Assembly (NCBI GenBank): GCA_004377245.1
Contig: SOIK01000204.1
Span: forward strand, 1-13,849
Direction of reading: 5' to 3'
DNA: 13,849 bases
Source of the DNA: Sulfurovum sp.
Lineage (GTDB): Bacteria > Campylobacterota > Campylobacteria > Campylobacterales > Sulfurovaceae
Shown: positions 3,129 through 12,254 of the stretch, piece after piece
Layout of the letters: each line of letters starts with the position of its first letter
Position numbering within the stretch: the first letter of the stretch is position 1
Position numbers and translations under genes: made by a program
Notes under the pieces: generated by a model
What the model was told of the DNA's origin: nothing
Databases searched by the model: none
What the model saw: the letters and a program-made list of their open reading frames with translations, nothing else

Positions 3129-3851
3129 ATGCGTGTAAAAGCAGTCATTGCCTATGATGGAAGTGCTTATCAAGGTTTTCAAAAACAAACCACTACAGAC
3201 AAAACAGTGACAAGTAGTGTAGAAAAAGCCTTACGCTCTTTGCAGATAGACTCATCTATAGTAGGCAGTGGACGTACAGATGCTGGCGTGCATGCAACAG
3301 GACAAGTGATACATTTTGATCTACCAGAATTTTGGTCTGATCTTGACAAACTCAAACTGAATCTCAACAGAAAACTAACAGAGATACAGTTCAAACATAT
3401 TAGTAGTGTTTCTCATGATTTCCATGCACGTTTCTCAGCGAGAAAAAGACTTTATCGCTATGTATTTAAAACACAAAAACCTTCCGTATTTGAACAGAAG
3501 TACATCTCATACTATCCAGAGTTTGATGCAACTCTACTTACACAAGCCTTAGCACTCTTTGTAGGAGAACATGACTTTGATTACTTTCATAAAACAGGTA
3601 CTATTACCCACACGACAGTAAGAAAAATCTATAAAACAAACTACATACAACGAAATAACTATCATTATATTTATTTTCAAGCTAATGGATTTTTGCGTTC
3701 ACAAGTAAGGATGATGATAGAAGCTGCGATGCAGTGCGCTAGAGGAGAAATGACTCTAAAACAGCTCTTGGAGCAGATAGAGTGTCAAGAAAAGCACACT
3801 ACAAGGCTTGCTCCTCCTGAGGGACTTTATCTAGCTAAGATTTTATATTAA
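3129..3851 (+). CDS. truA: tRNA pseudouridine(38-40) synthase TruA
   Basis: TruA isomerises uridines 38, 39 and 40 in the anticodon stem-loop of many tRNAs, in the cytoplasm. The 240-residue protein has the expected length for the family. It opens with the core strand VKAVIAYDGSAYQGFQKQ and carries the catalytic motif GSGRTDAGVHA, with Asp51 as the nucleophile. The second-domain signatures are RLYRYVF, GEHDFDYFHKTG and GFLRSQVRMM. The start at 3129 gives the canonical N-terminus. It has no strong ribosome site of its own but lies within the last of three TAATG mini-frames, so translation may be handed on from the upstream permease gene. The stop overlaps the stop of the convergent histidine kinase gene by three to four bases, leaving no room for a separate terminator. 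Confidence 0.95.
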   Translation: MRVKAVIAYDGSAYQGFQKQTTTDKTVTSSVEKALRSLQIDSSIVGSGRTDAGVHATGQVIHFDLPEFWSDLDKLKLNLNRKLTEIQFKHISSVSHDFHARFSARKRLYRYVFKTQKPSVFEQKYISYYPEFDATLLTQALALFVGEHDFDYFHKTGTITHTTVRKIYKTNYIQRNNYHYIYFQANGFLRSQVRMMIEAAMQCARGEMTLKQLLEQIECQEKHTTRLAPPEGLYLAKILY

Positions 3852-6800
3852 TCTATTTTTAACTTCTTTCTGAGATCTTCAATATTTGCTTTTTCTTCTA
3901 AAGTATCACAACAAAAATCATCTTGTTCTGATAAATTATGTATGAATGCAAAAGGTTTAGCTCCAGTATCTTGAATAAGATCAACAATCATACATTTCAT
4001 GCTTTTGAAAGGTTCTCCCTCATATATGACAAATGTATACTCTGTATCATCAAGTCTATCTAAAAACTTTTCTTCATCAGTAACAATATCCATATCATAT
4101 TCTAAATTTTTCAATATGCTTCCATAGAGATTTGCTATTAATGGCATAGAGTGATAGACTAAAACATCAGATTTTCTTTTTTTCTCTACAACTTTTTCAA
4201 CCTCTACTGCTTCTACCGCCTCTACTTCACTCTCTTGAATTTCGACAGCATTATCACTGCTCTGCGTATCAGCACTTTCTTCTTGTATGTTTTCATCTAT
4301 TTGCTTTGCACTCCCTAATGCTTCTAAAAGATCATCATAGAGCCCTTCATTATAAAGTTCATCATCGATACTTTCTTCAGTCTCAACAACATTATCTTTC
4401 TTCTCTTCTTCTATTTCTTTTTTCTCTATGTCATTTTCTATGGCTTCTTCTTTGTTTCCAACAATCTTATGAGGAAAATACTCTTGAATCAGTAAGTTTA
4501 ACTGCTCAAGCTCTATAGGTTTTGAAAGATAATTGTCCATACCTGCGTTTATATATTTCTCTCTGTCACCCTCTAAGGCATTTGCGGTTAGGGCAACAAT
4601 AGGGATATGATGTTTGCGTTGCTTTTCTTCAAAATCTAAAATTTTTCCTGTTGCTTCAATACCACCCAGTACAGGCATTTGAATATCCATAAATATCATA
4701 TCATATTCATTTTGCATACGAAGTTCCAGAGTCTCCTCACCATTGTTTGCAAGTGTAACTTCCACACCAAAGCCATTCAACACATTTTTAATCAACTTTT
4801 GATTGATGGTATTATCTTCTGCTACCAGGACATGTATATTTTCAAATGCTATATTACTCTTGCTATCTTTAGCTTTAGTCAACTTTTTATTATCTTTCTC
4901 TTCATAAACTACTTCAAGTGATTTGAGGGTTTTAGTAAGATTAACTGGCTTATAAAATATTCTATCTATGCTGTCTTCAATATCTTTAATACTCTTTTTC
5001 TTATCTCCGGTTGTCATGAGGACGATTTTTGTATCAAGGTCTAGATATTGGTCAAGTTCATCTTTTCTTTGATGGTATCTATGATCAATAAATACTACAT
5101 CTGGTAAAAGTGACTTTTCCTCTTCAAGTAATTCAGTACCATAATAGACTTTAAACTTAGCACCAGAATAATCAACATAAGCTTCAAGATTTTTATTCAT
5201 TTCTCGTTCAATATTTGCATCAGGAACTACAAAACCAACTTTAAATCCACGCATATTTACTACTGTTCTCTTTTCAGGTTGATCTGATTTTTCAAGTTTT
5301 AATGCAAAGAAGAAAGTAGAACCCTCATCCTCTACACTTTCTATCTCTAATTTTCCTCCCATAAATGAGACCAATTTACTAGAGATAGCCAAACCTAAGC
5401 CTGTACCACCAAATTTTCTACTTGTACTAACATCTGCTTGGGAGAAGGCATCAAATATTTTACTTTTCTGCTCCTCAGTAATACCAATACCAGAATCTGT
5501 AACAGAAAATTTAACTGTAGTATCTTGATCACTTTCAGAAAGCTTTTCTATAAGAACATCCACCTTACCACTCACTTTAGTAAATTTAATTGCATTACTG
5601 ATAAGATTGACAATAACCTGAGAAATTTTAGTAGGATCACCTATGACTGTAGAAGGTAATTCAGGATCTATATAGATACCAAATTCGATATCTTTTTCTG
5701 CAGCCCTCGCAGCATAAGACTCTACAGATGCTTCAAACTTCTCAATAGGATCAAATGGAATACTTTCCAATTCAATCTTATCTGCTTTTATTTTAGAAAG
5801 GTCAAGTATATCATTTACAATGGTTAACAAGTTCTCAGAACTATGTTCTATGACTGCAATAAACTCTTCCTGCTCTTCTGTAACAGGTGTAGATTTAAGC
5901 AGTTGGGTAAAACCGACAATACCATTCAGAGGTGTACGAATCTCATGAGACATATTTGCAAGAAAGAGATCTTTCGCTTGATTTGCCTCTCTAATTGTTT
6001 CAGTTAGAAATTTATATATCTGATTTATTTCCCTATTATCAATCAAAACTTTCAACTCTTTTTGCTGTTCTAGGTTAAGTACTGCCTCAATATCTTTTAA
6101 AGTATCTTCAAATAATTGTTTATCTTTGTTAATATTATGATAGATTACAAATAATACGAGAAGAAGTAGCAAGGTAAAGAGTGCGCCCATTGCATATTGA
6201 GTCATAACTTCTTTGCTTTGAGATACGTTATCTTCTGTATGTTTTTGAATCGTTGAGGAGAGTATACTTTGTGCTAACGCAATATAATTCATCTTTTTCT
6301 CAACTTGACTAAACCATTCATTTGTTGCAACAGAATACTCTCCTGTGTATGCTCCATATAGAATTAAAACACGCTCATTAGAACCAATTTTACTAAACTG
6401 CTCCGGTGTAAGCAGTGCATTGAGCTTAGAAACAATAGCTCTATTCTCCAATGCGTCGAATTCCGGCAATGTATCATTTACTAAAAGAGAATCCCACAGC
6501 ATCAAATCTTCATCACTCATCTTCTTTGAACCACTCAAGATAAAAAAGATACCTGTATTTTCTAACTCAGTATTTTCTTTCAACACTGTAAAGCTTGTGT
6601 AAGTTGACAGGTAGCTCTTCATCTCCGGAGAAGAATCTTTTGATGCAACTATTTTCATAGCCCCTACAAGTGATTCAAAAATTTTATCGTGGTATATCTT
6701 AAAGAAAATATTCTTATAATCTGAACTCAGAGTATCTACTTTTGTTCTTGCATGCTTTAAGTTTTTTGCAGCAGCCTGCAATCTTTTTTGATAAGTTGTA

Positions 6801-7111
6801 AATTCTTTATTGGTGTTTGTAAATGTCACTAGCTCTCTTATGGCACTATCAACAGCAATTCTCGATTCTTTTACCTTGTCAAACCCTGATTTCCCCTCTG
6901 TCCCCATATATATAGCACTGTAAAGTCTTTCTTTTGCTATCTTGTCAAGAACACTGTCCATCTCTTTAACGAAATATGTACTTTGTGTACTCTTTTGCGT
7001 AGATTCATACTCGACGTAAGAGATATAAGTATAATAAGAGAACACTCCCAATACCGCTACAACCACAGTAATAAGAAAAGTAAAGATGTTTTTATTATTT
7101 ATAATTTTCAT
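3848..7111 (-). CDS. Membrane hybrid histidine kinase with NIT-like periplasmic sensor and three receiver-like modules
   Basis: The predicted 1087-residue sensor kinase is the last gene of the five-gene minus-strand operon. Membrane helices at about 9-29 and 304-324 flank a helical periplasmic domain. Its segment KERLYSAIYMGTEG followed by SRIAVDSAIREL resembles the NIT (nitrate/nitrite sensing) fold. The cytoplasmic part has HisKA with phospho-acceptor His389 in SHEIRTPLNG, then an HATPase with N502/N506, DSGIG at 539-543 and GGTGLGLA at 568-575. Three receiver-like modules follow. The first, about 620-735, keeps D676 and K721 but lacks the adjacent acidic pair. The second, about 757-880, is canonical with E765, D766, D809, T842 and K864. 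An acidic linker (about 885-975) leads to a degenerate C-terminal module. No HPt domain or output domain is visible. GAGGA at 7118-7122 sits 6 bases before the ATG at 7111 and directly abuts an in-frame ATG at 7117, so the inner start is preferred. The NIT assignment is by eye and less certain than the kinase core. Confidence 0.9.
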   Translation of the reverse strand: MKIINNKNIFTFLITVVVAVLGVFSYYTYISYVEYESTQKSTQSTYFVKEMDSVLDKIAKERLYSAIYMGTEGKSGFDKVKESRIAVDSAIRELVTFTNTNKEFTTYQKRLQAAAKNLKHARTKVDTLSSDYKNIFFKIYHDKIFESLVGAMKIVASKDSSPEMKSYLSTYTSFTVLKENTELENTGIFFILSGSKKMSDEDLMLWDSLLVNDTLPEFDALENRAIVSKLNALLTPEQFSKIGSNERVLILYGAYTGEYSVATNEWFSQVEKKMNYIALAQSILSSTIQKHTEDNVSQSKEVMTQYAMGALFTLLLLLVLFVIYHNINKDKQLFEDTLKDIEAVLNLEQQKELKVLIDNREINQIYKFLTETIREANQAKDLFLANMSHEIRTPLNGIVGFTQLLKSTPVTEEQEEFIAVIEHSSENLLTIVNDILDLSKIKADKIELESIPFDPIEKFEASVESYAARAAEKDIEFGIYIDPELPSTVIGDPTKISQVIVNLISNAIKFTKVSGKVDVLIEKLSESDQDTTVKFSVTDSGIGITEEQKSKIFDAFSQADVSTSRKFGGTGLGLAISSKLVSFMGGKLEIESVEDEGSTFFFALKLEKSDQPEKRTVVNMRGFKVGFVVPDANIEREMNKNLEAYVDYSGAKFKVYYGTELLEEEKSLLPDVVFIDHRYHQRKDELDQYLDLDTKIVLMTTGDKKKSIKDIEDSIDRIFYKPVNLTKTLKSLEVVYEEKDNKKLTKAKDSKSNIAFENIHVLVAEDNTINQKLIKNVLNGFGVEVTLANNGEETLELRMQNEYDMIFMDIQMPVLGGIEATGKILDFEEKQRKHHIPIVALTANALEGDREKYINAGMDNYLSKPIELEQLNLLIQEYFPHKIVGNKEEAIENDIEKKEIEEEKKDNVVETEESIDDELYNEGLYDDLLEALGSAKQIDENIQEESADTQSSDNAVEIQESEVEAVEAVEVEKVVEKKRKSDVLVYHSMPLIANLYGSILKNLEYDMDIVTDEEKFLDRLDDTEYTFVIYEGEPFKSMKCMIVDLIQDTGAKPFAFIHNLSEQDDFCCDTLEEKANIEDLRKKLKID

Positions 7112-7124
7112 TTCCATTCCTCAT

Positions 7125-7883
7125 TTATTGATTTTTACTATGATAAAGTGCTAGTTGAGCAACAATATTCTCAAGGTAATCTATAGAAGTAAACATTAGC
7201 TTTGGAATGAACAAACTTTCTGATTTATCAAAAAAGATTTTATTTGCTTTCCAAGATTCATTCATTTTCACTTGTATTTTATGTGTTTCTTCTGTGTATG
7301 TGTAAAGATTGATTTTTTCTATATTTTCTTCAAGCTTACGCATAGATTCTTGCATCTGCTCTTTATTTGTAGCAGTATTAAAACCAACATGAAGAGCCAT
7401 GTAGTATTTAGTGATTCTTTCCAAAAGATACTCCATCTTTTTAGTTACCATCAGCATCTTTTCTTCTTCGGAGAAATCATACTTGTGTGCATCCGCAATA
7501 GAATCAGCTCCTTCAAGAAGTGTTTCACTATAGTCAAGCATCAATGCAGCTTTTTCTTTATCTACTTCTTCACTAACTATCTGTTCAATCTGATCCTTAC
7601 TGTAAGCAAGGAACTCAAGAATATCTTTTGTATCGGTATCCTTGGTTGTTGTAGCGATGATTCTGAGGTCGTCGCTCAACTTGTCCAGCGTTCTCATTAG
7701 CTCATTCTTGACTTCTGTTCTCCCTGGATTCTTATAGAAAAAAAGATAGTCTTTAACCATCTTCTGACTGAGGTATCTAATATTCTCAGAAGCCTCGATA
7801 ATCTTTACATCCCCCCTCGTTGCAGCATGACTAAGAAAAGTCAAAGAAGAAACAAGAAGAAGCACACGAAATATTGTTTGCAT
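7125..7883 (-). CDS. Exported PilJ-like protein with degenerate P-boxes
   Basis: This fourth and most divergent member of the exported helical protein series precedes the kinase gene by 13 bases, or 7 if the outer kinase start is used. The 252-residue product begins with a signal peptide (MQTIFRVLLLVSSLTFLSHA). It then follows the two-segment layout of its neighbours. At 32-46 the sequence SENIRYLSQKMVKDY aligns with AGKQRMLSQRIAKDY of the upstream gene: the leading Gly and the Met are lost while Arg36 is kept. The second site, ITKYY at about 157-161, keeps the helix end but has Glu151-Tyr152 where Arg-Met is expected. AAGGA at 7890-7894, six bases before this ATG, fixes the start; an in-frame ATG at 7919 would overlap the previous gene and precede the signal peptide awkwardly. 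Function is unknown. Loss of the signature suggests it does not bind the same ligand. Confidence 0.8.
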   Translation of the reverse strand: MQTIFRVLLLVSSLTFLSHAATRGDVKIIEASENIRYLSQKMVKDYLFFYKNPGRTEVKNELMRTLDKLSDDLRIIATTTKDTDTKDILEFLAYSKDQIEQIVSEEVDKEKAALMLDYSETLLEGADSIADAHKYDFSEEEKMLMVTKKMEYLLERITKYYMALHVGFNTATNKEQMQESMRKLEENIEKINLYTYTEETHKIQVKMNESWKANKIFFDKSESLFIPKLMFTSIDYLENIVAQLALYHSKNQ

Positions 7884-7899
7884 AGTAGATCCTTGTCTG

Positions 7900-8727
7900 T
7901 TATTTATAGAGTTCCACATAAAGCCCTGTAATCTGATTCATCTTCTTAGTGATATTATCAGTAGTATTGAAAACGATTAATGGTAATCCACCTTTTTCAA
8001 TATTGAGATAGAATTTATATACGATTTTCCAGAGTCTATCTATTTCATTGAGTTTTCTGTTGATCTCCGGTGTGTTTGCCGAGTTTGCCATAAGTGCTGC
8101 GTGAGACTCACTAAACAACGCTACTGCTGCTTTCATCTGATCAATCGTATTTTTATCTTTAATTCCAGCCTGGTAAGCGATATAATATTTAGCGATACGT
8201 TGAGCAAGCATTCTCTGCTTACCAGCTTGTCCTACAATTTTAGACTCTTGGATCTGAACCGTCTCTTTCAATGAATCAACTACATACTGGCTTCCCTCTA
8301 GCATCGACTCACTTAAATCTATAACAAGCTGTGCATTATCAAGAGTAAATTCTTCATTTGCTGTTGCTTCAAAGTCCTCCGTACTCATCTCAACAAAAGC
8401 AAGAAGGTTTTTAATCTCAGGATCATTAATAGACTTAACAAGTACTTTATGAGACTCGATAAGCTCAATAAGAGAATTTTTAAGCTGCTTATTTGCCTTA
8501 GCTGGCGCAATCTTTTTACCAGCATAAAGATAATCTTTAGCAATACGTTGAGAAAGCATTCTCTGCTTACCTGCCATCTCTATCAACTTCACTGTATCAG
8601 ATATAACTACTGGATTAGATGAAGCAGTAGATGCTGTAGTATTTACCTCTTCTGCCATACAAACCTCTGACAATGTAAATATTGTCACCACTACCATACT
8701 CATGTTTTTAATCATACTATTTTTCAT
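7900..8727 (-). CDS. Exported protein with two PilJ/NarX-type P-box segments
   Basis: The 275-residue protein has an N-terminal hydrophobic signal ending near CMA|EE and no later membrane helix, so it should be periplasmic. It contains two copies of the P-box-like motif, AGKQRMLSQRIAKDY at 52-66 and AGKQRMLAQRIAKYY at 168-182, 116 residues apart. This motif typifies the PilJ domain (Pfam PF13675) and the nitrate-binding region of NarX-class sensors. A PilJ domain of the chemoreceptor McpN is known to bind nitrate. The rest is predicted helix, ending in a long segment around LWKIVYKFYLNIE. GGGAG lies five to ten bases before the ATG. It is separated by 12 bases from the preceding gene and 16 from the next, consistent with one transcript. 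Ligand binding is inference. A soluble protein with two such segments and no kinase or chemotaxis output is unusual. Confidence 0.88.
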   Translation of the reverse strand: MKNSMIKNMSMVVVTIFTLSEVCMAEEVNTTASTASSNPVVISDTVKLIEMAGKQRMLSQRIAKDYLYAGKKIAPAKANKQLKNSLIELIESHKVLVKSINDPEIKNLLAFVEMSTEDFEATANEEFTLDNAQLVIDLSESMLEGSQYVVDSLKETVQIQESKIVGQAGKQRMLAQRIAKYYIAYQAGIKDKNTIDQMKAAVALFSESHAALMANSANTPEINRKLNEIDRLWKIVYKFYLNIEKGGLPLIVFNTTDNITKKMNQITGLYVELYK

Positions 8728-8739
8728 CCTGTCTCCCTT

Positions 8740-9522
8740 TTACTTAGTCTCTAAAGCAACATAATTTTGTGTTGCACTATTCATATTTTTAAGAATATCA
8801 TTTGATTTTTTGTAAATCAATGTTGGAACAAATTTAGAACTTGATCTGCTCATCATTTCAAAAAACATAAATGATCTCTTCACTTTTGCCAAAAGAGCAG
8901 TTATTTCTGCCGTATTTAAACTTGACTTCTCCAGTTCGGCTAATGAAGTCTTAAAAAGCTTCATAGTCTCATCCAGTTTAGTTTTGAACTTAGGGTCTTC
9001 CACTCCCCAAACTTTCAACATATATAGACTTGCCATTCTTTGAGAAAGCATTCTTTGCCGTCCTGCCATATTTACAATCTTTCCAGATTCTTTTCCAGAC
9101 TCTTTAGCAAAAAGTTTTGTTGTGTCATCTGCTGCTTTAAGGAGTGTTTCCGAATCCTCCTGTAGCTTTTCTACCTTCTCTTTGCTCGGTGCCTCTGAAA
9201 GTGTTTGTTGGAGAGGAACCCAAAGGGTTTTAACCTTTTCTATACTCTTCTTGGTCTCATCATTTTTAGTATAACTCAAAAGTGATTCCATATGATCTTG
9301 AAAAGTATCTGCTACTTTTTTAAGATCCTCATCTGGTTTGCCGAATGTGTTGCCCATGCCTACCATTGCATAATCTTTCAACATGCGTTGTGTAAACATT
9401 CTTTGTTTACCTGCTATATCTACTGCTTGAGTAGGACTGCTTATCTCTATTGCCAACGCAGAAGTAGAAAGTAAAGAGATAATACCTAATCCCTTCAGAG
9501 CTTTTTTTGTTTTTTTTATCAT
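8740..9522 (-). CDS. Exported protein with two PilJ/NarX-type P-box segments (tandem-duplicate copy 2)
   Basis: The 260-residue protein has a signal peptide ending in ALA at about residue 24, then an all-helical body. The first P-box, VDIAGKQRMFTQRMLKDY, is at 34-51 and the second, VNMAGRQRMLSQRMASLY, at 150-167, again 116 residues apart. The C-terminus carries the shared block FEMMSRSSSKFVPTLIYKK. It is a tandem paralogue of the gene just upstream: both have 783-base coding regions and the copies are offset by exactly 798 bases. AAAGGTG about ten bases before the ATG is the likely ribosome site. Family knowledge (PilJ domain, NarX, McpN) suggests a nitrate- or nitrite-type ligand pocket formed with the P-box arginines. 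That is inference, and the protein has no visible output domain, so it would need a partner such as the co-encoded kinase. Confidence 0.88.
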   Translation of the reverse strand: MIKKTKKALKGLGIISLLSTSALAIEISSPTQAVDIAGKQRMFTQRMLKDYAMVGMGNTFGKPDEDLKKVADTFQDHMESLLSYTKNDETKKSIEKVKTLWVPLQQTLSEAPSKEKVEKLQEDSETLLKAADDTTKLFAKESGKESGKIVNMAGRQRMLSQRMASLYMLKVWGVEDPKFKTKLDETMKLFKTSLAELEKSSLNTAEITALLAKVKRSFMFFEMMSRSSSKFVPTLIYKKSNDILKNMNSATQNYVALETK

Positions 9523-9537
9523 TAGTTTTTGTCACCT

Positions 9538-10320
9538 TTACTTTGTCTCTTGTGCTGCATAAAGACCTGTTGCAGTATTCATATCTTTTAAAATCTCATT
9601 TGATTTTTTATAAATAAGTGTTGGAATGAACTTTGAACTTGATTTGTTCATGATTTCAAAAAACATAAAAGACTTTTTAGCTTTCTTGAGCAATATTGTA
9701 ATTTCAGGTGTGCTCATATCTGACGCCATCAGTTTATCCAAAGAAGTCTTGAACAGGTTCATTGCTTTGGTCATTTTGTCTTTAAATTGAGGGTCATCTA
9801 TTCCCCAAACTTTCAACATATACAGACTTGCCATTCTTTGAGAAAGCATTCTTTGTCGTCCTGAAATATTGATGATCTCACCTGAAGCTTTTCCTGTCTG
9901 CTTGGCAAAAAGTTGGGTAGCCTCATTGGCTTGCTTGAGTAGCGCCTCCAAGTCTTCCTGCATCTTTCCTGCTTTGTCTTTACTCGGTGCTTCCTTTAGA
10001 GCAGCCCTTATCGGGTCCCACAGAACTCTTACTTTAGCAAGACTTTCCTTAGTGGCGGGATCTGTATTAAAACCTATAAGTGATTCCAAATGGTTTTCAA
10101 ATGCACCCATTATTTTCTGGAGATCTTCCCCTGGATTTCCAAAATTATTTTCCAATCCCACCATCGCATAATCTTTCAACATACGTTGCGTAAACATTCT
10201 TTGTTTACCTGCTACATCTACAGCTTCTGAAAGGTTTTTTATTTCAATTGCGAATGCAAAACTAGAAATGAGAGAGGGAAGAAGTACTATTTTTATTGCT
10301 TTTTTCATAAAACGAGACAC
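9538..10320 (-). CDS. Exported protein with two PilJ/NarX-type P-box segments (tandem-duplicate copy 1, GTG start)
   Basis: This is the first gene of the minus-strand operon and a close paralogue of the next. I place the start at a GTG at 10320. AAAGGAG at 10327-10333 stands six bases before it, the product is then 260 residues like its paralogue, and AGKQRM falls at 37-42 in both. An ATG four codons later (10308) is too far from that ribosome site. The frame also stays open upstream to an ATG at 10464, but that would put about 48 Phe/Ile-rich residues before the signal peptide. The signal ends at about AFA|IEI. P-boxes are at 34-51 (VDVAGKQRMFTQRMLKDY) and about 150-167 (ISGRQRMLSQRMASLY), followed by the conserved SSSKFIPTLIYKK block. 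Periplasmic location is predicted. The ligand is unknown, with nitrate or nitrite the leading guess from the PilJ/NarX families. Confidence 0.86.
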   Translation of the reverse strand: MSRFMKKAIKIVLLPSLISSFAFAIEIKNLSEAVDVAGKQRMFTQRMLKDYAMVGLENNFGNPGEDLQKIMGAFENHLESLIGFNTDPATKESLAKVRVLWDPIRAALKEAPSKDKAGKMQEDLEALLKQANEATQLFAKQTGKASGEIINISGRQRMLSQRMASLYMLKVWGIDDPQFKDKMTKAMNLFKTSLDKLMASDMSTPEITILLKKAKKSFMFFEIMNKSSSKFIPTLIYKKSNEILKDMNTATGLYAAQETK

Positions 10321-10630
10321 TATAAACTCCTTTATACTTAGTATAGTAACCATACTAAAATTCATAAAAAAGTTAAAAAATATATAGAAGCGAAAGCATA
10401 CAAACTCTATTAGCAGTCTGGCGATCTTTTTTAAAAGACCCATAACTTTCCGTCCTTGCTTCACAACAAGTTTGGCTTTTTTAATTAAATTGCATTTTGT
10501 TACATCATTAATTGTACTTATTGCTAACTTAAACGAAACTTATATTCTTTGCGGTAAATAACTTTTAATATCATACAAAAGATGTTTTTACAATCTTCTG
10601 CTAAAATACTTAAAAAATGGAATAACTTTT
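10321..10630. promoter_or_regulatory. Divergent intergenic promoter region between the PilJ-type/kinase operon and the cytochrome c gene
   Basis: These 310 AT-rich bases hold no convincing gene. On the operon side there is an inverted repeat and a candidate -10 box at 10338-10358, listed separately, and an AT-rich run around 10360-10385 (TATATA at 10381). A short palindrome-like TCTTTT-TT-AAAAGA lies at 10425-10438. On the cytochrome side, TAAAAT at 10602-10607 is a possible -10 element about 24 bases before the ATG, with TATATT at 10541-10546 as an alternative. No strong -35 elements are visible, which is usual for Campylobacterota promoters. All promoter calls here are by eye. Confidence 0.45.
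10338..10358 (-). promoter_or_regulatory. Inverted repeat TTAGTAT-N7-ATACTAA overlapping a candidate -10 box (possible operator)
   Basis: Perfect 7-base arms lie at 10338-10344 and 10352-10358. An overlapping second palindrome, ATACT-T-AGTAT, is at 10334-10344. On the minus strand, 10345-10340 reads TATACT, a good -10 hexamer, placed about 7 bases before the AAAGGAG ribosome site. A transcript starting just after it would have a very short leader. A dyad centred on the -10 is where a repressor-type operator would sit. The binding protein is unknown. Confidence 0.4.
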
Positions 10631-10984
10631 ATGAAACAACTTTTACTTTTATATTTATTTTCACTTATTCTTTTTGCTTCCACTGATGCTGAAACCCTCT
10701 ATCTCAAAAATGCCTGTAACTCTTGCCATGGTACGTATGCAGAGGGTATGGGAGCTTCACCTAGGCTACAAGGTGTAAGGGAAGATGTATTGTTACGAAG
10801 ATTAAAAGATCTGCAACAAGGTAAAACACGTACAGCATTTGGTTCAGTGATGATATCTTTTGCCAAAGCACTGGATGAGAACCAAACCATTCAAATGGCA
10901 AAGTATCTATCCACTCTTAAAACAACTGTAAATGAAAATCGTTATGAGATAGAATATGACACCGCAGGAGATGGCGGGTCATAA
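10631..10984 (+). CDS. Small periplasmic c-type cytochrome (c553-like)
   Basis: The 117-residue precursor has a signal peptide (MKQLLLLYLFSLILFASTDA) and a single haem-attachment motif CNSCH at 29-33. A likely distal haem ligand, Met74, is in SVMISFAKALD, and a closing helix (IQMAKYLSTL) completes a class I cytochrome fold of about 95 mature residues. Such proteins carry single electrons between periplasmic oxidoreductases or from the bc1 complex to terminal oxidases. It is transcribed divergently from the PilJ-type/kinase operon and converges with the DUF2231-type gene across a 6-base gap. The ribosome site is weak (GGA about 9 bases upstream of the ATG). The tail after about residue 97 is polar and unstructured-looking. 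Its electron partners cannot be told from this window. Confidence 0.9.
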   Translation: MKQLLLLYLFSLILFASTDAETLYLKNACNSCHGTYAEGMGASPRLQGVREDVLLRRLKDLQQGKTRTAFGSVMISFAKALDENQTIQMAKYLSTLKTTVNENRYEIEYDTAGDGGS

Positions 10985-10990
10985 TCGTTC

Positions 10991-11752
10991 TTAATGTGCA
11001 GCTGGTTTTACCTCAGCTGCAGGAGTAACTTCAGCTTTAACCTCTTCTACCTTCTCTTTCACTGCTGACACAGCTTCTTGTGAAGTCTCTTTTACTTCCA
11101 CTTCTACAGGAGCTGTACTTGTTTCAGTAGTTGCCGGTGTAGCCTCTACTGGATCCTCTTTAGCTTCAGTGGTTGCTGCAGGCTCTTTTTCTTCAGTTTC
11201 TGCAGCTTTATTCTTCTCTTCCAACTCTTCAAGTTCTTCTTTAACATCAAAAAGCTCACTATCTAACTCTTGTACTTTTTCAACATTTACACCATATTTA
11301 TAGACAAGCTCTCCACCCTCTTTACCTTGCTTCAATATACCTGCTACAAATAAGATAAGAATAAACAGATAAAGTGCTTTCATAAGTCCTCTACTAATCA
11401 TCGCAGAGAGTATTTTAAATACCAATACTACTACAGAAACTAGCATAAGGTATGTTCCTAAAATCTTATGTTCTTTTAACTCTCCCTGTGCTGCTTCACC
11501 CAGTAAAGGGAATGCTTCTTTACCATCTATACTACCTGTGAAATACGCAGCAGCTGCTGCTACTACGGTTAAAACAAGTAAAAAGAATGAGACTGCCCCA
11601 ACAGCTCTTTTTTTCACGATAAGGTTAACAACTTCCAATAGAAGAACGATCACTGGTAACGCGATGATAAAATGATCCACTGGCGGGTGCATTAATACTG
11701 GGATATCAAACGGCAGTTCGACTTGTGGTAATTTGATAGCAGGTAATTCCAT
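10991..11752 (-). CDS. DUF2231-type membrane protein with acidic coiled-coil and Ala/Thr/Glu-rich tail
   Basis: The 253-residue protein begins with a short amphipathic lead and MHPPVDHFIIALP, the histidine-proline signature of the DUF2231 family (H22 and H27). Four membrane helices follow at about 27-47, 51-72, 99-118 and 123-141. A charged coiled-coil segment at about 157-185 (ELDSELFDVKEELEELEEK) then gives way to a low-complexity tail rich in Ala, Glu, Thr and Pro up to the end. The family has no firmly assigned function; the conserved histidines and the nearby cytochrome and HemJ genes hint at a redox or haem link, which is only inference. AAAGGAT eight bases ahead supports the ATG. TATACT at 11788-11783 on the minus strand is a possible -10 box about 31 bases upstream, so the gene may have its own promoter. 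Confidence 0.75.
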   Translation of the reverse strand: MELPAIKLPQVELPFDIPVLMHPPVDHFIIALPVIVLLLEVVNLIVKKRAVGAVSFFLLVLTVVAAAAAYFTGSIDGKEAFPLLGEAAQGELKEHKILGTYLMLVSVVVLVFKILSAMISRGLMKALYLFILILFVAGILKQGKEGGELVYKYGVNVEKVQELDSELFDVKEELEELEEKNKAAETEEKEPAATTEAKEDPVEATPATTETSTAPVEVEVKETSQEAVSAVKEKVEEVKAEVTPAAEVKPAAH

Positions 11753-11782
11753 ACTTCAATCCTTTGATTTAAAATTTAGAAA

Positions 11783-11788
11783 AGTATA
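11783..11788 (-). promoter_or_regulatory. Candidate -10 box for the DUF2231-type gene
   Basis: The minus strand reads TATACT at 11788-11783, in the 67-base gap after the HemJ gene, about 31 bases before the ATG and with the ribosome site AAAGGAT in between. The -35 region is not recognisable. The call is by eye only. Confidence 0.3.
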
Positions 11789-11819
11789 ACACAAAATTAT
11801 TTAGTTCCATATGTTTTAT

Positions 11820-12254
11820 TTAAAACGGTTTGACAATAACCATGATCACGATAAATATCATCAAAAGTGTTGGTACTTCATTGTAGAACCTGAAGTATTT
11901 GCCACTTTTATAATACGGATCCGTGATGAGTTTTTTACGGATCATATTGAGTGAAAAACTATATGCGATCAAAAATGCCAAAAAGAATAACTTCACATGC
12001 ATCCAGCTTCCACTTTGAAAAATACCAGGATTGAGGTAAAGCATCACAGCACCAGAGATGATAGTCGCCCACATTGCAGGTACACCTATATAGGCATAGA
12101 GTTTATACTCTTGTATCTTTACCACTTCTCCAAATGCTTCATTATCAGCATGTTCTCTATGATAGATAAAAAGTCTCGGCAAATAAAACAACATTGCCAT
12201 CCAAGAGGTAAAACTCATCACATGAAATGCCAATATCCAACTATAATACGCCAT
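11820..12254 (-). CDS. hemJ: Protoporphyrinogen IX oxidase HemJ (UPF0093 family)
   Basis: HemJ is the membrane-bound enzyme that oxidises protoporphyrinogen IX to protoporphyrin IX, the next-to-last step of haem synthesis, in bacteria lacking HemG and HemY. The 144-residue protein has the usual length. It shows the conserved N-terminal helix with His11, the motif MLFYLPRLFIYH at about 21-32, and MHVKL at 85-89 with the conserved Lys88. Four hydrophobic helices span the protein, ending with LLMIFIVIMVIVKPF. The ATG directly abuts the stop of the upstream nuclease gene (TAGATG), with GGAG inside the end of that gene, so the two are probably translated from one transcript. A HemJ enzyme fits an organism that also makes c-type cytochromes. 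Confidence 0.88.
   Translation of the reverse strand: MAYYSWILAFHVMSFTSWMAMLFYLPRLFIYHREHADNEAFGEVVKIQEYKLYAYIGVPAMWATIISGAVMLYLNPGIFQSGSWMHVKLFFLAFLIAYSFSLNMIRKKLITDPYYKSGKYFRFYNEVPTLLMIFIVIMVIVKPF

Follow-up and report, generated by a model that had tools for sequence, protein, structure and literature searches.

The stretch of DNA considered here (hereafter the window) consists of 13,849 nucleotides from Sulfurovum sp. (family Sulfurovaceae, Campylobacterota; contig SOIK01000204.1 of assembly GCA_004377245.1). Its minus strand carries five genes, in the order PilJ1, PilJ2, PilJ3, PilJ4 and a hybrid histidine kinase, which span positions 10320 to 3848 and form a candidate periplasmic sensing system. 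The intergenic gaps are 15, 12, 16 and 7 bases, with PilJ4 taken from its orthologue-supported ATG. The operon starts with a cyclic diguanylate (c-di-GMP) riboswitch, which is part of the same unit as the five genes. The features are as follows.

10408..10485, minus strand: c-di-GMP-I (GEMM-I) riboswitch aptamer, Rfam RF03167 (full length, 65.9 bits against a gathering score of 59)
10325..10374, minus strand: predicted hairpin holding the Shine-Dalgarno sequence AAAGGAG, a possible translational expression platform (minimum free energy folds)
9538..10320, minus strand: PilJ1, exported tandem PilJ protein of 260 residues with a predicted NIT-like fold (GTG start behind AAAGGAG)
10186..10221, minus strand: PilJ1 box 1, VDVAGKQRMFTQ, with Arg41 (Arg in 76/79 PilJ1/2 proteins)
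9838..9873, minus strand: PilJ1 box 2, INISGRQRMLSQ, with Arg157 (Arg in 76/79 PilJ1/2 proteins)
8740..9522, minus strand: PilJ2, exported tandem PilJ protein (Pfam PilJ match; alignment with PilJ1)
9040..9075, minus strand: PilJ2 box 2, VNMAGRQRMLSQ (translation against the published N-box pattern, PMC6381276)
7900..8727, minus strand: PilJ3, exported tandem PilJ protein (Pfam PilJ match)
7125..7883, minus strand: PilJ4, an exported PilJ homologue in which the boxes are rewritten, directly before the kinase (orthologue alignment; PilJ3 profile match)
3848..7117, minus strand: NIT-domain hybrid histidine kinase of 1089 residues (Pfam domains)
6254..6949, minus strand: periplasmic sensor of the kinase, a NIT domain (Arg64, Asn187)

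The first three proteins exceed the Pfam cut-off for PilJ (PF13675, 26.6 bits), with 75.8 bits for PilJ1 (scored in a longer frame of 308 residues), 80.0 for PilJ2 and 65.2 for PilJ3. Two QRM boxes set 116 residues apart are read directly in PilJ1 and PilJ3, and are found at the same spacing in PilJ2 by a gap-free alignment with PilJ1, to which it is 61% identical. PilJ2 also matches the McpN structure 6gcv weakly (E 0.029). The box arginine is present in 56/57 PilJ3 proteins at box 1 and in 56/57 at box 2, and the box Gly, Arg and Met, which contact nitrate in McpN, rank among the best-conserved residues. The strict nitrate N-box of McpN, [IVL][ND]xAGxQRML[ST]Q (PMC6381276), occurs at least once in 51/57 PilJ3, 31/80 PilJ1/2 and 0/53 PilJ4 proteins. 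Signal peptides of all four secreted proteins were assigned by eye, and no lipobox was seen by eye in any of the window's four. PilJ1-4 do not fit a PilJ-type chemoreceptor or sensor kinase, in which PilJ is fused to membrane and output domains, as Pfam shows no output domain in them. Elsewhere in the same genome (1.19 Mb, 58% complete) there are no further PilJ matches, all six being confined to this operon.

PilJ1 is predicted to be all-helical, and its predicted structure shows an overall match to the sensor fold of NasR. On this model, two P-box domains are too narrow a description of PilJ1, which in its entirety is better called a detached NIT-like fold. No NIT match to the secreted PilJ proteins appears up to E 1 in Pfam, and a sequence-level tie between tandem PilJ and NIT was rejected, the profile comparison giving 0.3% (1.7% for PilJ4). 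The likeness is one of fold only, as seen for PilJ1.

PilJ4 scores 15.5 bits in Pfam, under the cut-off, and a PilJ match at E 0.1 or better is found in 15 of 35 PilJ4 proteins; comparison of its orthologue profile with that of PilJ3 gives a 99.9% match. The start is placed at an internal ATG, in preference to a longer open reading frame, since most orthologues in the alignment begin there. Box 1 (n=53) has the arginine in 51 proteins and a change of Gly to Glu in 51, while box 2 has a change of Arg to Glu in 33/53. Judged by these alignments, PilJ4, which has no intact box, is a separate conserved component. Because its boxes are altered and it lies directly before the kinase, it may serve as an adapter.

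The kinase contains a NIT domain (PF08376, 51 bits against a cut-off of 24.9), HisKA (381-445), HATPase_c (493-609) and a receiver (Response_reg, 763-876) according to Pfam. The overall fold of its sensor is closest to NasR. A sequence search of the PDB with this sensor alone gave nothing useful, and a profile from 14 other NIT domains retrieves NasR. In NasR, E175 and R176 are predicted to lie within the nitrate pocket, according to the available part of the source (PMC7496416). The window's kinase keeps Arg64 at the first site and has Asn187 at the second, where NasR has Arg176 (chain and protein numbering being 27 apart, as judged from the QER motif), and does not carry both arginines of the pocket. 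Among 50 operon kinases (from 52 open reading frames, two of under 350 residues being dropped; five of the 50 have no residues at site 1) arginine is present at site 1 in 33, at site 2 in 15 and at both in 14, and the full ERG with the second arginine occurs in one. Other NIT proteins carry both arginines in 28/32 cases of a first control, which was drawn from the highest-scoring NIT loci, with a bias towards canonical sites, and includes two rows without a site-1 residue, and in 16/20 of a second, hand-picked control of low-scoring NIT proteins, where the second arginine is present in 20/20. The control loci (30 + 20) were counted irrespective of any PilJ genes nearby.

On a tree of the kinase core (54 rows) the second arginine changes at least six times, so that the site is under weaker constraint and not simply the subject of a single loss. 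The operon kinases group together, save for one nested paralogue in the same genome, counted as unlinked; only seven unlinked rows serve as a test, other unlinked pieces being too short or without the kinase core motif. The C-terminal part of the kinase behind the receiver (window 3848-4489) includes a stretch conserved in orthologues, with no Pfam match over cut-off.

The aptamer ends 87 bases ahead of the PilJ1 start codon. Across 29 aligned copies, 97.1% of cells are paired against 85.9% when shuffled, and 11/19 pairs show changes on both sides. Position 10, the base that discriminates between c-di-GMP and cyclic AMP-GMP, is an invariant G in 21 aptamers. The folds of the leader hairpin are weak (z -1.45 and -1.22), and the Shine-Dalgarno sequence lies inside a predicted hairpin in about five of eight folded leaders, as read by eye with weak z-scores. 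Neither a sigma-70 site on the operon strand nor an intrinsic terminator turned up when the leader was scanned. RF03167 matches occur in 107/175 genomes of the family, 92 of them over cut-off. A model (R1) built from 21 aptamer copies, 14 of them from 13 of the 61 PilJ1-type loci with the window counted in, finds an aptamer at 20/61 such loci, seven of them newly found. At one PilJ1-type locus in another genome (L135, G029), which has no NapA match, a full-length aptamer match is followed by a PilJ1 frame that stop codons interrupt.

The genome from which the window comes has nine c-di-GMP-I aptamer matches, the window copy alone being over the Rfam gathering score, and nine matches to GGDEF domains, fragments among them. 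Near other copies lie a PAS protein, a DUF11 protein, a LuxR-type regulator with a GGDEF-EAL protein behind it, an operon and a hybrid kinase. The operon (contig C53, 592-6244) encodes a PAS protein, an HPt protein, a NIT hybrid kinase with both arginines and a receiver; its HPt protein and receiver are candidates for the relay partner of the window's kinase. The hybrid kinase (contig C196, 438-3438) has 880 residues, lies directly behind its riboswitch with no PilJ genes between, and is the paralogue that groups with the window's kinase. A tandem pair of c-di-GMP-I-like aptamers is found at the end of contig C45 (188-433).

Relatives of PilJ1 (E 1e-6) are present in 102/175 genomes of the family, and 67 genomes count as PilJ1-positive when the cut is set at about E 1e-40. 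Sixty loci were fetched from 59 of these, which together with the window's own genome represent 60/67. PilJ3, PilJ4 and a NIT kinase fall within the fetched stretch in 51/60 genomes, and several of the other nine reach a contig edge. Among 79 PilJ3 loci in named genomes, which partly overlap with the PilJ1-type set, PilJ4 is next in 72, the kinase follows PilJ4 in 70, and a PilJ1/2-type gene precedes PilJ3 in 68. Since the gene order recurs in 70/79 loci, the arrangement is not due to chance. Named protein relatives belong to Sulfurovum, Nitratifractor and unclassified Campylobacterales. A genome that looks like Nitratifractor salsuginis contains the riboswitch, one PilJ1-type gene, PilJ3, PilJ4 and the kinase.

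Of 397 genomes taken from the phylum, 16 have a match to the PilJ4 profile, in 6/68 genera; 14 of these genomes belong to the same family and two to another family of the order. At the loci of the latter two (L277, 4363-5994; L278, 6750-8288) the same three PilJ types occur, and the protein encoded behind them, with 543 or 512 residues, is matched by the kinase-sensor profile at 221.6 and 102.8 bits. Pfam places NIT under cut-off in one of these proteins and lists none in the other, places the kinase ATPase slightly under cut-off in one and lists none in the other, and shows a receiver in neither; no riboswitch was found at either locus. Some relatives of PilJ1 (about 250-260 residues) are annotated as 'nitrate/nitrite-specific signal transduction histidine kinase' with no kinase domain listed, and such names conceal the unit in present annotation. 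Longer PilJ arrays, in which an open reading frame of about 560 residues holds several repeats, occur in two other genera of the family (G021:C165, G019:C183, G024:C3, G145:C28).

An earlier note on this DNA had described five same-strand genes with gaps of about 7-16 bases, three proteins with two intact boxes 116 residues apart and a NIT-type hybrid kinase, all of which agree with the data above; profile searches with PF13675 and PF08376 give matches over cut-off for PilJ1-3 and the kinase NIT domain, and the linkage is conserved in other genomes. Its picture of four exported, all-helical PilJ-type proteins holds for PilJ1, predicted to be helical throughout, and for the Pfam scores of PilJ1-3, but not for the score of PilJ4. 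Its two-P-box description likewise fits PilJ1-3 by their boxes, but PilJ1 as a whole is better taken as NIT-like and PilJ4 lacks an intact box. The operon span given there, 3848..10320, takes in the five genes but leaves out the riboswitch. The idea that the kinase reads soluble PilJ receptors is backed indirectly by the fold matches and by the arginines, which are kept in the secreted proteins and often lost in the kinase.

Riboswitch covariation, gene order, predicted folds, and arginines conserved in the secreted proteins against their frequent loss in the kinase are the basis of the reading that, on balance, we favour: a multi-component periplasmic sensing unit in which secreted PilJ1-3 bind an anion and, with PilJ4, set the hybrid kinase under control of a c-di-GMP riboswitch. 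PilJ1-3 would each be a NIT-like fold of eight helices that carries a pair of conserved arginines, as modelled for PilJ1 and assumed for the other two, and would bind a small anion, perhaps nitrate. Together with PilJ4 as a possible adapter they would attach to the kinase at its NIT domain and regulate it, and the phosphoryl group would exit through the receiver to an HPt protein or regulator encoded elsewhere. The riboswitch in the leader would set the amount of receptor and kinase. In the simplest account, ligand binding would have moved to detached NIT-like proteins, with the kinase keeping a NIT scaffold to read them. Inferred parts of this scheme are the ligand, the contact with the kinase, what PilJ4 does, the partner in the phosphorelay and the on/off sense of c-di-GMP control. 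More tentatively, the locus may represent a split and multiplied sensor domain, in which PilJ1-3, PilJ4 and the eroded kinase NIT domain form a mixed receptor with mainly soluble ligand sites, the sensitivity of which the riboswitch could tune through receptor dose.

Several observations weigh against the sensing-unit reading. A riboswitch match is lacking at 41/61 PilJ1-type loci, and is found in 11/79 PilJ3-type loci, with none in the fetched stretch of the other 68, some of which begin past the leader. As nearly all operon kinases form one group of the tree, the linkage does not represent many independent events. Many operon kinases keep one or both NIT arginines, among them that of the N. 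salsuginis-like genome (L115), which keeps both, and such kinases may bind ligand themselves; the biased first control and the hand-picked second soften the contrast with other NIT proteins. The failed sequence-level tie to NIT, the absence of the strict N-box from 49/80 PilJ1/2 proteins, and its full match within the window at box 2 of PilJ2 alone belong here also, as does the lack of a NapA match in 6/51 genomes with the full system, of which one is 99% complete and another 92%.

The ligand is the point at which an alternative survives best. In comparisons that ignore phylogeny, NapA (a match at E 1e-100 or better, the detection of which depends on genome completeness) is present in 57/67 PilJ1-positive against 65/108 other genomes (p 0.0006), in 21/25 against 30/53 within the window's own genus (p 0.022), in 14/16 against 14/26 for own-genus genomes at least 90% complete (p 0.042), and in 45/51 full-system against 77/124 other genomes (Fisher p 0.0005), the last 'others' including seven unfetched PilJ1-positive genomes. 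Because phylogeny is ignored and NapA matches depend on completeness, this association is weak support. Nitrate fits both the boxes and this association and, from the sequences, is the leading ligand candidate. There is nevertheless an appreciable, if smaller, chance that the ligand is another anion (nitrite or a sulfur oxyanion) or a protein partner. The 49 PilJ1/2 proteins without a strict N-box would fit such a ligand. According to the available part of the source, neither the tandem PilJ domain of PilJ (PA0411) nor the NIT domain of PA4520 bound nitrate (PMC6381276), so that not every PilJ or NIT domain does so; arginines at the corresponding place in QseG-QseE are proposed to recognise the accessory protein, as far as the available text describes (PMC12691602). 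The strict N-box in 51/57 PilJ3 proteins and the positive NapA association count in favour of nitrate.

It is also conceivable, although unlikely, that the PilJ proteins scavenge or store anions in the periplasm with no kinase contact, and that the kinase senses alone. They have no output domain of any kind, and the site-1 arginine is kept in 33/50 operon kinases and both in 14/50. However, PilJ4, with no intact box, still stands directly ahead of the kinase in 70/79 PilJ3 loci, and the arginine pair is often lost in operon kinases, unlike other NIT proteins. A structural or adhesive periplasmic layer tied to sessile life and c-di-GMP, with boxes for folding or dimerisation, would suit the riboswitch and the reported absence of flagella in Sulfurovum and Nitratifractor (PMC5401914, available part), but is improbable given that the nitrate-contacting Gly, Arg and Met of McpN are among the most conserved residues and that PilJ1 as a whole matches a sensor fold. 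Since flagella are reported absent in both genera, the name PilJ should not imply motility.

A cytochrome c protein (window 10631-10984) lies divergent from the operon, with DUF2231 and UPF0093 membrane proteins next (10991-12254).

If the sensing-unit reading is true, a one-protein nitrate sensor can be split so that soluble receptors are read by a separate kinase, and second-messenger control is joined with outside sensing in a single operon, so that the cell could set how strongly an outside ion, such as nitrate, is listened to. The unit is open to culture tests through the N. salsuginis-like genome, that species being described as nitrate-respiring and non-motile in the available part of its report (PMC3156401).

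Each kind of part has precedents: kinases fed by soluble accessory proteins, nitrate sensors of the PilJ and NIT types, and riboswitches for c-di-GMP. In the titles and abstract openings of the open-licence literature, no paper was found on a kinase operon with exported tandem PilJ proteins, or on a c-di-GMP-I riboswitch in Campylobacterota. NarX/NarQ and McpN carry their PilJ sensor within a membrane protein with an output, whereas here PilJ is a free, exported tandem protein. NasR, the nearest overall fold for PilJ1 and for the kinase sensor alike, has its NIT domain fused to an RNA-binding domain and retains the second pocket arginine, which is replaced in the window's kinase; the secreted proteins score by sequence as PilJ, not NIT. 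TorT-TorS resembles the unit in that a soluble periplasmic protein is read by a hybrid kinase with a helical sensor. TorT, however, has a periplasmic binding protein fold and not a helical bundle, and the window's kinase was rejected as TorS (NCBIfam 340.1 bits against a cut-off of 676.5). In QseG-QseE, as described in the available text, an accessory protein binds to a kinase whose sensor is a four-helix bundle and activates it, a precedent in which a part has been proposed for arginines at the corresponding place; QseG is, however, an outer-membrane lipoprotein, and that text mentions neither tandem PilJ proteins nor a riboswitch (PMC12691602). In NreA-NreB, too, a separate soluble protein tunes a two-component system, according to the available part of the source (PMC8199190), but NreA has a GAF fold and NreBC senses oxygen.

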